From assembly GCA_009773515.1 (NCBI GenBank), contig WSXX01000024.1:1-64000 (forward strand): a stretch of 64,000 nt of DNA. Reading direction: 5' to 3'. This DNA comes from Bacteroidota bacterium (GTDB lineage Bacteria > Bacteroidota > Bacteroidia > Bacteroidales > Lentimicrobiaceae). Below are positions 7,512 through 14,499 of the stretch, one piece after another (the stretch's first letter is position 1; the number at the start of each line of letters is the position of its first letter). The notes under the pieces were generated by a model that was not told the DNA's origin, did not search any database, and saw only the letters and a list, made by a program, of their open reading frames with translations. The position numbers and the translations under genes were made by a program.

Positions 7512-7949
7512 TTATTTCCCGCAAACCCTCAGCTGGTTGCAATGCATAAATTGGTTTGCTATCACTGAAGTGTTAAAGGGTATGTCTTTAACATAGCCTT
7601 CTTCTTCAGGTGCGATTTCCGGTAAGATTTTATTCAGAAACCGGTCTGACATTGTTTTGGTATCAAACGGAAAATCATTAACTGATGCTTCCTGTGCCGG
7701 TTTAGGAAGATTTGAAGATAAATAGCCGGAACTCACCTCTTTTGTGTCGAAAGGAATGTCGTTGATGTATTCCTCTTCTTCTGGTTGTGGTAGATTTGCT
7801 GCCATGCCATTCTGGATTTCCAGCGTATCGGCTATAGCAGTGTCAGTTTTTGAGTTGAGGGGAAGTATCGGATTTGCTCCGGCTATTGATGCACCTATTC
7901 CGGAAAAAGTCAGTGCGCTGAGTAGTATGGATAAGATGATGGTTTTCAT
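7512..7949 (-). CDS. Small secreted protein with three NDIPFDT-type repeats (145 aa)
   Basis: Not a family I can name. A signal peptide (MKKTI-like start, LLSALTFSGIGASIAGA) is followed by a short linker. Then come three imperfect repeats of about 30 residues, each with an acidic lead and a (I/F)PF(D/N)T core: YINDIPFDTKEVSS, SVNDFPFDTKTMSD and YVKDIPFNTSVIAN. The first two cores are preceded by NLPxP. The protein ends in a short basic tail with two cysteines (HCNQLRVCGK). No catalytic motif or membrane anchor is visible. The acidic, proline-spaced repeats suggest a binding or structural role in the periplasm or outside the cell, but that is inference. It stands between two terminators, so it is probably a single-gene transcript. 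Confidence 0.7.
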   Translation of the reverse strand: MKTIILSILLSALTFSGIGASIAGANPILPLNSKTDTAIADTLEIQNGMAANLPQPEEEEYINDIPFDTKEVSSGYLSSNLPKPAQEASVNDFPFDTKTMSDRFLNKILPEIAPEEEGYVKDIPFNTSVIANQFMHCNQLRVCGK

Positions 7950-8355
7950 GGCAGTCGTTTTTAAGTTGTTTCCGAAGACAGTTTTACCATTATCGTGCCA
8001 GAATTTATAAGATACAGTATATCAATAAGATATGATGAAATATTGCAACAAATCCATTGATCAATAAAGGTCAAAATACTTGCAAATTTTATCCCTGCTT
8101 AAATACTAAATTTGTGTAATGTATTGATAATCAACAATAAAAGACAATTATAGCGCTGTCTTTTACATCGAAAAGATCCTAAGTTATAGATAATGAGCAG
8201 ATTAGTAAATAGTGTTCGTTTTCGGATAGCTTTCGTGCAAATACGTACAAAGTGAAATGTGAGATTAAGGCGTCGGAAACATTCAGGTTTCAGATAAAAA
8301 AAACCATCTGCAATCTAGTGCAGATGGTTTTTTATAAAAAATTATGCTGATCAGA
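7950..8355. other. 406-bp intergenic region
   Basis: AT-rich, with no gene and no exact TAnnTTTG box for the minus-strand gene at 7949. It ends in the terminator of the next gene (8299-8336). No RNA structure beyond that hairpin was recognised. Confidence 0.5.
8299..8336 (-). terminator. Intrinsic terminator of the T9SS cargo gene
   Basis: AAACCATCTGCA (8301-8312) pairs with TGCAGATGGTTT (8319-8330) around ATCTAG. Flanking A and T tracts allow termination on both strands. It lies 20 bp beyond the minus-strand stop at 8356. Confidence 0.9.
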
Positions 8356-9945: not shown

Positions 9946-12900
9946 TTATTCAGGTGATAAAGGTACAGCCTTTTTGCGCTGGCGGCGGAAAATTTCAGAA
10001 AATCGGTCAAACTCATACCGATAATAAATACCCACACCTTGCTTGTAATTGACGTTATAGGATGCTACCTCAAAAGGATTGTTGGTTTTATTGTATGCTT
10101 TTACTCTGAATCTTCCATCTCGGGTGATTTTTACATCAACAGTTACATCTCCCACAATATTACCGGTGTTTTGCGTGGAACCCGAACTGATTAAACCGAA
10201 ATTTCCATCAATGGTAACACGATCGTTGAAAAGATGGGTTGACAGCGCAACTTCAATTGCCTCAGAGGTGAGTGCATCTGCTGTACGATAGTTTAAACCT
10301 ATATCAATATCATCGCTGATTTGCGACAACATGCTGCTCAACTGACTTGTAAGCATTTCCATGGATGATGAGCCGACACTGCTCGCCAGACTGGTATTTC
10401 CGGTAAAACTAAACGATTTTAGCAACAGCAGCGAAACCATCTGCTGAGTCATAACTGCTTCATTGGTGGTGTCAATGGCTGAAAAAACCAGGCTTTTCAG
10501 TGCTTCTTCTGAATCGGGCAGCCTTATGCTGAATGCGATATCAGGATTATACAGGTTGTTTTTCAGGTGAATAATGCAGTCAACCGGAACATTACGTCCA
10601 GCATACTCCGGTATAGCTGCCAGCTCAGGAATACCACTCAGCGAAGCCCGGATTTTATAGACTGCCTTAACATTCATATTTGCATCGTAAGGACTGCCGG
10701 TAAAAGAGATGACACTTCCGCGTTCAATAGAAAATAACCGGTTTATAATGTCCTGAAAAGTAAACAGGAAAGTTCCGCTTTCAATATTATAGTCGCCGAA
10801 GGTTGTGATGTCGCCCCGGGTATCAATGCCCATTTGAATCTGCCCCGTTCCCGTGGCTTTTATGTTGCCGATGTTTTCGGGAAGGAATATCTGAATGCCG
10901 GCATCTTTGGTTACATCTATCAGCATGTCGAGGTTTACACCCGAAGTTACTGGTTCGAAATAGGAGATTTCTTCTTCTTCGCCATTTTTTTTAGTGAATC
11001 TGATGTATTCATTTTCAGTGGCGTCAACATCCAGATTTATGGGAATAAAGATATTGGTACCTTTTTCTGATCGGGCTCTGATATTCATTCTGAGATCGGA
11101 GAACGGACCTTGGATACTTACATTTCCGGTTGCAACTGCATTGCCATAGAACAATTCGTTCTGTTTGAAAGTAGTATGCAGACCAGCCAGATTATTGGCC
11201 TGAACATTGAGGCTCATAACCATATCGCGGAAATAATTGTGCGACAGGCTGAAATCGCAAAGCCCTGTATTTCCCAGCGAATCGTAAATCATAATACTTT
11301 TAGCTGAAATCAGATCGGGGGTTATTTCTACTTTATCGGCCAACGAATAGATCACATTCAGGTAATCAATTTTCATTTGGGTGCGCATCAGCTGCAATGA
11401 ACCAGTAAAAGCAGGTTGATCAAAAGTGCCGTCAAGTCTGAGATTTCCGCTGGTGTATCCTTTCAGGTATGAGGCAAATCCTTTCAAAAACGGGTTTAAC
11501 GATGCCAGGTTGTAATTGGTAAGCCCGATGTCGAGATCAAAGTTTCTGTCATTGCTGATTTCCGGGTAAATATATCCCTGTACCGAGATGGGTTTATGTG
11601 AGCCGATGTTTCCTTTGTAAATTACATCAGCACTTATTTCAAGGCCTGACTTTTGATTATCCCACCTGCTGACAATTACTGCATCGCCAAGCCGTTCCTT
11701 GTTGAAGCTAAAGTCGTTGACTACAATATCGGCTTGTAATTTTCGTTCACCATACACATCATTCAGCGATATATTTCCGTTTACAATGCCATCAAAGTCA
11801 AGATTATCCTGCGCAAGCAGCAAATCGGCATTGGAAATATTCAGATCTTCGAACCTTAAATAGAGTGTATCGCCCGTGTTTTTGCTTATTTTTCCGGATA
11901 TGTTTAAGTCCTGATTCAACCCGTTGATATGCAGGTTGTTTATGAAAACTGAACTGCTGTCGATGATAAAATCTCCAATCTGTTCAACCACAAAAGTGGT
12001 ATCATTTACAGCGAAATCGCCTTTATACAGGTTTGCTCTGATGTAAGGTTTTTCTGAGAAAGAAAGTATTCCTTCAAAATCACCGAAATTCCGTTTGCCT
12101 GTAACTTTATCTTTCCACTTTATCAGGTATCTGATGCTGTCGCCCCGCATCGAAACGTCAAATGAAAAGTTTTCAAGTCCCAGCTCCAGGGTATTCTCTT
12201 CGGATGCTTCGCTGAAAACAACCGATGAAGAACCAGTGGTGATCTGAAGCGAATTTCCACTGTTTTGGCCGCGTATAAACCAGTCGTTGATTTTAATGCC
12301 TTGATATTCAAATTGATCAGTTTGTCCATTGATCAGAACGGTTTCATTAACCGAATTATAGCTCCCGAAAAGGTATGCAGATGAGTTGATTTTTAATGCA
12401 GGCAAAAACAGTTCGGTAAGAGCATCAACATCTTTTATATTGATGGTGTATTCCAATATGTGTTCCTGTTTTACATCCAGCTGAATTGCAGGACCTGATC
12501 GGAGCGAAGGCAGGTATGCATTCAGAATATTCATGAGCGATGAATAAAAATCGATAAATGCAAACTGACCGGTAAAATTAATATCGGCAAAGTCTGATTC
12601 AAGGCTTAGTGTTTTTGAATTTTCTGAGGTAGTTCTGGTGGTTAGTTCAATATTCTTTGCAGGATATGCTTTTCCTGATTCAGTGTATAATGTGTTTGAA
12701 AACCTGAGTGAGCCGAGAATGTTGTCAATGTTTGAACCTGTAAAATTCAGATCCATTGAAGTGCTGAGTTTTGATGTTGAATCTCTGTCCCATATGTTTA
12801 ATTTACTGAGATACGCATCTTTGACGGTTGAAGTAAAGTTAAATGCCGGAATTTTTGACGAGAAATCCACAAGGCCATTAAAATCAAGATCTATCAGTTC

Positions 12901-14499
12901 GTCGCGCAACGCAAGTGTTCCATTAAAAAGTTTGTTCTCCAGAGCTCCATCAAGATCGATGTTGTTAAATTCATTGCCCATTAATTCAAGTCTTTTTACC
13001 ACTCCATCCAGCAACAATGAAATTCCTTCCGTTTTATGAAAGCTGCCTGAGAGCTCAGAGTCAAAATCAATTTTTCCTAAATATTCCTGTGCTTCAAAGC
13101 TTTTTCCCATATCCCAGTTTTGGATGTAGGCATGTCCCAGGAAATTAATTTTTTTCTTTGAATCTGTTTTCAGGCTGATATCGGTTTGCAGCGTGCCGGA
13201 CGATGTCGAGAATGTAGCAGCAGAAACAAAGTCATAAATAAATCCGGTGAAGTATCCTTTTATCCTGATATTTCCCAGGTTTCTGACCAATTCCGGTATT
13301 TCTAACGACTGATTGTCTTTTAATCTGAATGCCGATATGTCCTGATAATTGGTTCTGAAGTCCTTGATATTTAAATGAATAAATGTTTCGTTGATATTTG
13401 GGAGACCATCCATCGAAATATTGCCTTCAAAATAGGTGTTGTTGCCGAATGCCAGTTTCAGTTGCCGGGCTCGCAGCGAAGCAATTGTGCCTTTCACCGG
13501 TCCGTAAATCTTAAGCAGCTCTCTGGTTTCAGATAATTCAGGTGCAAAATAACCAATGTCGCTCAGCATTATTTCCGACTGATCGAAATCGCCGGATATT
13601 CTTACACTATCAATAAAATTATTGTAGGCTGAATAACCGTTATGAAGAAATTTCAGATTCAGTTTTATATGACTATCCGGAGTAATAATTTCCATATTCC
13701 GGGCAACAATAGAATCTTTTTTTACATGCAATTGTGCAGACAAAGAATTGAGGGTAAATCCAGATTTATCATCAAACTGCAGGTTTTTGATATTTCCTGA
13801 AATGCTGTCGCTGCTAAAGGTAAGGCGGTTGATTTCAAGGTTTAAATTGCGGATAAATATGTTGTTGTAATCAACGCCGATGGCAACCGTGTCTTTGAGC
13901 TGGTTTAAATACCTGAAGGAGGCATTTGAAAATTTAATTCCTGAAAAACCAATGTTCCATGGCTTTTCAGATGATTTTGTTGTGGTTGTGTCGTCCCCGG
14001 TAAAATAATCAGCAATAAATTTGTAATTCATTACGCTGTCTGATCGGTACAGTATCATATTTACTTCTGCCTGCTGCAGAGAGAATGTGTAAATTCCGAG
14101 ATACCTGCTTTTAAAGTTTAGTTTTCCGATGTTAAACTTAATTTTTTCGGCTTTGAGAAGATAATTATGTTGAAGATCTTTAACAGAAACGCCTGTCAGC
14201 TCAATTTTTAACAGAAATGAAATATCGAGGCTTTCAATACTTACCTGAGTGCCGAGTTCTTTGGAAATATAGCGGGTTGCCATTCCGGCGAGTTTGGTCT
14301 GCACAAAAGATGTTCTGAATACTCCATAAACCACAAGCAGGGTAATTGCGCCTGTTAAAAATGTAAGGAATGATATGTAAAGCGTCTTTTTGATAACTTT
14401 GCAGGCTTTAAGTGATTCTGTGCTTTTTTGGATTGCTTCAGGTTTTCTGCTTAACCTGCAAAGGTCACAAAAATCAGGCAGATTCTTCAGGTTTCGCAA
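9946..14499 (-). CDS. tamB: TamB-type translocation and assembly module protein (AsmA-like)
   Basis: A very long (1517 aa) protein with one N-terminal membrane anchor (about residues 38-60, LYISFLTFLTGAITLLVVYG). A repetitive beta-rich periplasmic body follows, and the conserved DUF490 C-terminal domain closes it (GDITTFGDYNIESGTFLFTF, FTGSPYDANMNVKAVYKI, and the FRVKAYNKTNNPFE strand near the end). Such proteins bridge the inner and outer membranes. They are linked to outer-membrane protein assembly and to phospholipid transport. The start is uncertain: the open frame begins at TTG, and no ATG exists before the anchor. A near-match promoter box (GACCTTTG) lies inside the first 20 codons, so the true start may be downstream. 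It is divergent from tsaD with only 34 bp between the annotated starts. Confidence 0.88.
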   Translation of the reverse strand: MRNLKNLPDFCDLCRLSRKPEAIQKSTESLKACKVIKKTLYISFLTFLTGAITLLVVYGVFRTSFVQTKLAGMATRYISKELGTQVSIESLDISFLLKIELTGVSVKDLQHNYLLKAEKIKFNIGKLNFKSRYLGIYTFSLQQAEVNMILYRSDSVMNYKFIADYFTGDDTTTTKSSEKPWNIGFSGIKFSNASFRYLNQLKDTVAIGVDYNNIFIRNLNLEINRLTFSSDSISGNIKNLQFDDKSGFTLNSLSAQLHVKKDSIVARNMEIITPDSHIKLNLKFLHNGYSAYNNFIDSVRISGDFDQSEIMLSDIGYFAPELSETRELLKIYGPVKGTIASLRARQLKLAFGNNTYFEGNISMDGLPNINETFIHLNIKDFRTNYQDISAFRLKDNQSLEIPELVRNLGNIRIKGYFTGFIYDFVSAATFSTSSGTLQTDISLKTDSKKKINFLGHAYIQNWDMGKSFEAQEYLGKIDFDSELSGSFHKTEGISLLLDGVVKRLELMGNEFNNIDLDGALENKLFNGTLALRDELIDLDFNGLVDFSSKIPAFNFTSTVKDAYLSKLNIWDRDSTSKLSTSMDLNFTGSNIDNILGSLRFSNTLYTESGKAYPAKNIELTTRTTSENSKTLSLESDFADINFTGQFAFIDFYSSLMNILNAYLPSLRSGPAIQLDVKQEHILEYTINIKDVDALTELFLPALKINSSAYLFGSYNSVNETVLINGQTDQFEYQGIKINDWFIRGQNSGNSLQITTGSSSVVFSEASEENTLELGLENFSFDVSMRGDSIRYLIKWKDKVTGKRNFGDFEGILSFSEKPYIRANLYKGDFAVNDTTFVVEQIGDFIIDSSSVFINNLHINGLNQDLNISGKISKNTGDTLYLRFEDLNISNADLLLAQDNLDFDGIVNGNISLNDVYGERKLQADIVVNDFSFNKERLGDAVIVSRWDNQKSGLEISADVIYKGNIGSHKPISVQGYIYPEISNDRNFDLDIGLTNYNLASLNPFLKGFASYLKGYTSGNLRLDGTFDQPAFTGSLQLMRTQMKIDYLNVIYSLADKVEITPDLISAKSIMIYDSLGNTGLCDFSLSHNYFRDMVMSLNVQANNLAGLHTTFKQNELFYGNAVATGNVSIQGPFSDLRMNIRARSEKGTNIFIPINLDVDATENEYIRFTKKNGEEEEISYFEPVTSGVNLDMLIDVTKDAGIQIFLPENIGNIKATGTGQIQMGIDTRGDITTFGDYNIESGTFLFTFQDIINRLFSIERGSVISFTGSPYDANMNVKAVYKIRASLSGIPELAAIPEYAGRNVPVDCIIHLKNNLYNPDIAFSIRLPDSEEALKSLVFSAIDTTNEAVMTQQMVSLLLLKSFSFTGNTSLASSVGSSSMEMLTSQLSSMLSQISDDIDIGLNYRTADALTSEAIEVALSTHLFNDRVTIDGNFGLISSGSTQNTGNIVGDVTVDVKITRDGRFRVKAYNKTNNPFEVASYNVNYKQGVGIYYRYEFDRFSEIFRRQRKKAVPLSPE

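Follow-up and report, generated by a model that had tools for sequence, protein, structure and literature searches.

A family of exported DIPF-repeat proteins in the Bacteroidales with a probable role in cell-envelope stress

What might a small exported protein do when it is built of short acidic repeats, resembles no described family and is encoded apart from its neighbours? The question is raised by a gene in the window, the stretch of 64,000 nucleotides of a Lentimicrobiaceae contig (WSXX01000024.1) analysed here. The original prediction, made from the letters of the DNA, was of a 145-residue signal-peptide protein with three 30-residue repeats around an NDIPFDT-like core, a two-cysteine tail and a transcription unit of its own between two terminators. 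To our knowledge, envelope stress in the Bacteroidota is poorly mapped, and the comparisons described below indicate that the window protein probably represents a new type of cell-envelope stress protein.

The window gene and its family

The features of the locus are collected in Table 1. The open reading frame is present and intact, the three cores and the two cysteines are found as first described, and a helix is predicted at the N-terminus. By eye, the AGA|N that follows this helix would be a suitable cleavage site for signal peptidase I. The core, [NK]D[IF]PF[DN]T, recurs at spacings of 28 and 30 residues; among 100,000 shuffles of the mature part, none contained three cores and a single one contained one or more. 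A nucleoside transporter gene is convergent with the window gene and a secreted-protein gene lies upstream on the same strand, both named from the reading of their frames. Inverted repeats accompanied by T/A runs flank the gene on both sides, in keeping with a separate transcription unit; a terminator consensus scan listed the downstream repeat as a minus-strand terminator, and the upstream one was absent from its list. Elsewhere in the window, a 1517-aa frame on the minus strand (9946-14499) has, by eye, a TamB-type look.

Table 1. Position of the window gene, its parts and its flanking elements (coordinates of the window)
Feature	Position	Strand	Basis or remark
CDS, exported repeat protein, 145 aa, ATG start	7512..7949, including stop codon	-	intact ORF; homologues in same genus
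Predicted signal peptide, about residues 1-25	7875..7949	-	predicted helix 2-22; hydrophobicity of family N-terminus
Repeat core 1, NDIPFDT, residues 63-69, then predicted helix 69-80	7743..7763	-	
Repeat core 2, NDFPFDT, residues 91-97, then predicted helix 97-108	7659..7679	-	
Repeat core 3, KDIPFNT, residues 121-127, then predicted helix 127-137	7569..7589	-	
C-terminal tail with C137 and C143; not a family feature	7515..7544	-	two Cys in last 16 residues in 7/103 members
Putative sigma-54 type promoter CTGGCACGATAATGGTAA (-24 GG, N10, -12 G)	7984..8001	-	same kind of site upstream of family genes
Terminator-like inverted repeat, common to convergent nucleoside transporter gene	7390-7413/7416-7439		
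Terminator-like inverted repeat behind upstream gene	8295-8312/8319-8336		

Homologues proved numerous, in Bacteroidales from the environment. The window genome holds one copy, and a single-sequence search recovered the family in 15 of the 19 genomes of the genus (G000 included), the four without a match having completeness values of 97, 89, 78 and 72. A profile search of 393 Bacteroidales genomes gave matches at E ≤ 0.01 in 32, or in 30 once the two weakest (0.007), which cover the signal-peptide end only, were set aside. A second profile matched just the window genome itself among 395 genomes from across the phylum, a sample in which 5 of the 20 other genomes listed belong to the same order, a further 374 falling outside the listing. 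In contigs of named genomes a pattern matched 275 times; 146 of these matches proved to be relatives, of which the best 80 were kept. The 10 stretches of viral contigs that matched a pattern encoded no relative. From 137 loci, 105 distinct frames with at least two motif matches were obtained, of which two (L006, L116) were dropped for lack of a start, leaving a set of 103 genes; as many as six copies were detected in a single genome. In genome G018 a family gene is split over two frames (L006/L025). Eight contigs carry Chlorobiota titles (L067, L068, L070, L089, L092, L097, L103 and L107), and their family genes group among Bacteroidetes rows of the tree; these titles may be wrong.

Family members are defined by an N-terminal signal and at least two [DN]DIPF[ND]T-type cores approximately 24-38 residues apart, a description that the window protein fits. 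Under a looser core pattern, nine of the 103 genes have two cores, 74 have three, 17 have four and three have five. The consensus reads EEEAYI[DN]DIPF[ND]Txx[IV]A, and neighbouring cores lie 28-32 residues apart in 179 of 220 cases and exactly 32 apart in 105. Over 297 repeat units D1 is constant, E occupies position -4 in 293, and F4 and T6 are each kept in 289, with the proviso that the core pattern itself allows D, N or E at position 1 and fixes P3. A strongly hydrophobic N-terminus is present in 99 of 103 members, an AxA motif in 20 and a lipobox in none. Values of dN/dS lie between 0.06 and 0.55 in 27 of the 28 close pairs listed (one pair was not computable), and thus the frame is constrained as a protein and the family is under purifying selection.

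The family is without a name in the libraries searched (Pfam, NCBIfam and PDB sequences). Pfam returned no family for the window protein at E ≤ 10, and for 37 members none better than E 0.006. In NCBIfam, against which 45 members were scanned, the window protein scored at best 14.1 bits where the cut-off is 156; a ferredoxin model was matched by one other member (E 0.00095), which is taken as chance. The single match among PDB sequences, a glutamine-tRNA ligase at E 0.17, is at chance level. Three longer relatives were also scanned with Pfam: the C-terminal ends of L046 and L047 resemble TonB_C (18.9 and 17.4 bits) without reaching its cut-off of 24.6, and L034 resembles MtrC-MtrF_N, likewise below cut-off (20.3 bits against 27.7). 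The first two members lie at L046:1294-2064 and L047:1381-2130, and a C-terminus like theirs is seen by eye in L205. Literature searches for DDIPF, NDIPF, DIPFNT and DIPFDT gave no DIPFNT or DIPFDT among the titles of the matches listed, many of which concern SSB, and the titles and opening abstract lines of the matches listed for regulators, Psp and envelope stress named no such protein. The suggestion that the protein belongs to no described family has therefore stood, with homologues under selection and no clear match to a characterized domain in these libraries.

Structure prediction gave no global fold. AlphaFold2, run on alignments of 45 and 37 sequences, returned mean pLDDT values of 70.6 and 72.9 and pTM values of 0.20 and 0.21, which at about 0.2 in both models leave too little confidence for a fold search. 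Both models show a signal helix (residues 2-22 in the window protein, where the first two blocks have mean pLDDT 91 and 81), beyond which the chain runs extended except for a single short helix immediately after each PF[DN]T. They are read as a predicted, mostly disordered multivalent chain.

Promoter patterns upstream of family genes

Among 102 genes classed by upstream sequence, 62 carry a sigma-54 type site and 3 a weak form of it, 29 a direct repeat, 5 an ECF-type box and 1 a weak one, and 2 none. One of three promoter patterns is thus matched by 100 of the 102, and no gene fits two; the two unclassed genes show, by eye, a decayed direct repeat and were counted as such for the tree. Since the patterns were defined on the very genes counted, these family counts are descriptive, and the control counts and genome scans serve as the tests. 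The relatives are non-independent samples, and the control frames were picked mechanically, wrong starts included, which may lower the control rates. The putative regulators named below (sigma-54 with an NtrC-type activator, LytTR proteins and ECF sigma factors) are those suggested by the anatomy of the sites.

A sigma-54 site, of which TTTGGCAC-N5-TnG is the commonest form, is present between -90 and -30 in 61 of 101 family genes (two of the 103 near contig ends being excluded). Among control ORFs, taken from the same loci and no shorter than 150 aa, 9 of 645 have one. Over a wider upstream interval the pattern precedes 62 of 102 family genes versus 21 of 918 controls, with seven further controls having the weak form. 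Upstream of the site, a TGTNCG-N4-CGNACA-type palindrome (TATNCG allowed) is found in 27 of 61 genes against 4 of 702 controls, and half-sites average 2.05 per sigma-54 family gene against 0.22 in controls. The remaining 34 of the 61 have no full palindrome, and the window gene (L001) and its closest relative (L002) have neither palindrome nor half-site upstream. The usual -12 element of sigma-54 promoters is GC; that of the window gene reads GT, and its -24 GG and -12 G are in place. The window genome encodes rpoN, and the sigma-54 activator domain is matched strongly 10 times and weakly 5 times. An enrichment of the bare -24/-12 pattern across the window genome was considered and rejected, as 10 such sites stand against 14 for the reversed control.

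The combination of sigma-54 site and palindrome, scanned in 15 genomes, occurs at 22 sites in 13 of them against one reversed-control site; 18 of the 22 precede family genes, in genomes that, as for the direct-repeat scan below, were picked because they hold such genes. The four non-family sites precede a MacB/FtsX permease identified by Pfam (L214), an unassigned exported protein (L198), no gene that could be found (L206), and a contig end (L213), where the promoter sequence is nearly that of family gene L205. A related scan with different spacing in the genus of the window yielded nine sites, six of them at family genes by coordinates.

The second pattern, CATTCACCGA-N11-CA[CT]TCGCC[GT]A, is a 10-bp direct repeat, followed in most cases by a TAnnTTTG box. 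In its strict form it precedes 18 of 101 family genes and none of 690 controls, and in a looser form 29 of 102 versus 2 of 918, one of these two controls being a liaF-like gene (L187) itself fetched by the site. The window gene has no such repeat. The general form of LytTR sites is reported as two repeats of 9-11 nt with a spacer of 11-13 nt (PMC4847170), a geometry into which the family repeat fits, and a LytTR protein may accordingly be its regulator. With one mismatch allowed, seven genomes of this class contain 19 sites and none with the reversed pattern. Counted once per locus, 15 precede family genes, as expected because the genomes were chosen for these genes; the four others all precede a pspC gene (L181, L185, L189) or a liaF-like gene (L187), identified by Pfam except for L189, which was identified by eye.

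The third pattern, an ECF-type box TGTAAC-N15-18-CGTC, precedes 5 of 102 family genes, plus a weak case, and 5 of 918 controls; these controls comprise a counted family gene (L056), a family-like neighbour (L054) and one ABC ATPase gene in three related loci. L054 and L056 have a DVPF variant of the repeat behind ECF-type boxes, in L054 in neighbouring genes. In L127 and L135 the ABC ATPase gene that comes directly downstream of a family gene has an ECF-type box as well. Of 21 pspC loci fetched in the genus of the window, all 17 stand-alone genes counted (L215-L229, L231, L232) have the box, which suggests ECF sigma control; by eye it is absent from L230, L234 and L235, which are among the four uncounted loci, and the pspC genes L181 and L185 of other genomes have none. 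The upstream regions of pspC examined in the genus contain no sigma-54 match within 95 bases of the start, the matches of L224 and L225 lying at 109 and 129. Co-regulation of the family with pspC in the genus of the window is therefore unsupported, and the idea that pspC had there simply moved from LytTR to sigma-54 control was rejected, since pspC carries the ECF-type box.

On a weakly resolved tree of 102 proteins (149 columns) the promoter classes need 9 changes, versus 31.9 when shuffled, and well supported branches taken by themselves force at least three changes for the sigma-54 label. Copies with sigma-54 and direct-repeat sites occur together in 8 of 34 named genomes, and are adjacent in L078 and L098.

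Interpretation and alternatives

With moderate confidence, the window gene is proposed to encode an exported effector of the Bacteroidales cell-envelope stress response, a proposal that rests on comparative sequence evidence. The reading is favoured because pspC, liaF-like genes and a permease stand behind the same DNA sites as family genes, the link to stress coming from four non-family direct-repeat sites and one clear sigma-54 site. Transcription would depend on sigma-54 with an NtrC-type activator, on a LytTR-type response regulator or on an ECF sigma factor, and the signal, to judge from the few other genes behind these sites, may be envelope or antimicrobial-peptide stress. The steps that follow are the least certain. 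The protein might be retained in the periplasm and act there as a multivalent binder, disordered for the most part, in which the repeated EEEAYIDDIPFNT core and its short helix could dock one conserved partner; each induced molecule might then engage several partner molecules and act as a scaffold, chaperone or decoy. A broader view can be put forward tentatively: this undescribed repeat family may be a recurrent output of envelope stress that has been re-wired among sigma-54/NtrC-type, LytTR and ECF control, even between neighbouring paralogues, and that docks its core multivalently to a single conserved envelope partner.

Much of the same evidence can be viewed differently. The mature part of family members has a median pI of 4.1 and a median excess of 16 acidic over basic residues, and a MacB/FtsX permease lies behind the same sigma-54 site; the protein could on these grounds be an acidic decoy that soaks up cationic antimicrobial peptides or metal ions by its charge, with the repeat as a mere supply of acidic residues. 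This is unlikely, as I, P, F and T are among the most conserved positions, and the strictness with which D-I-P-F and T are kept speaks for specific recognition rather than for charge alone. An ordinary structural or surface repeat protein unconnected to stress, under routine regulation, would agree with the scarcity of non-family sites and the missing palindrome of the window gene, but is improbable in view of three promoter patterns, with low control rates and no gene fitting two of them, and of pspC and liaF behind the same site.

Two-component or LytTR-type systems often govern peptide pheromones, and each repeat might conceivably be a mature signal peptide cut from a precursor after export. 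Similar units do follow in tandem behind a signal peptide, the geometry of LytTR-type sites is seen in 29 of 102 genes, and 11 of 80 loci contain a member of a cluster of ABC ATPase genes no more than about 6 kb away, which in L114, L127 and L135 is the next gene downstream of a family gene. By eye, however, this cluster joins ABC proteins of several unlike kinds. Among the 40 neighbour clusters printed (each from at least 3 of the 80 loci, with representatives viewed by eye) there is neither a common processing gene nor a conserved operon partner, and those that could be placed by eye are mostly housekeeping genes that track species relatedness. The segments between repeats vary freely, and the hydrophobic C-terminal stretches of 5 of 103 members suit an anchored protein. 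Such a precursor is decidedly improbable.

An envelope stress effector, the reading preferred here, would have practical uses. The tie of the family to three stress-type promoter patterns offers reporter genes for the respective circuits as well as DNA sites that are directly testable, and the compactness of the repeat motif means that a binding partner could be fished with a synthetic peptide.

Comparison with known systems

Spy and CpxP of Escherichia coli are small proteins of the periplasm whose synthesis rises under envelope stress, Spy being controlled by two two-component systems, and the role proposed for the family would be alike in these respects. They differ in that Spy and CpxP fold into helical cradles and have no DIPF repeats.

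A likeness of another kind is to the C-terminal tip of SSB, given as DDDIPF (PMC5872125), in which acidic residues also precede DIPF. In the family the motif lies inside an exported protein, recurs several times and has [ND]T after it, and none of the 103 members ends in DIPF; because of this internal position and the export, the likeness is taken as a coincidence of letters. ABC antimicrobial-peptide permeases (COG0577) of Bacteroidia are reported to be sigma-54-regulated (PMC12316311), and one sigma-54 and palindrome site of the family type precedes a MacB/FtsX permease, although the family protein is itself no part of a transporter.

The Psp and Lia systems offer the remaining parallel. PspC and LiaF are placed in envelope stress (PMC11237479, PMC9239133), and Lia and Toastrack proteins are reported with LytTR and two-component links (PMC11237479). 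The window protein differs from them in being exported rather than a multi-pass membrane protein, and neither it nor the 37 members scanned with Pfam matched a PspC, LiaF or Toastrack domain. The likeness lies instead in the promoters, as pspC and liaF-like genes stand behind the same direct-repeat site as the family genes of their genomes.
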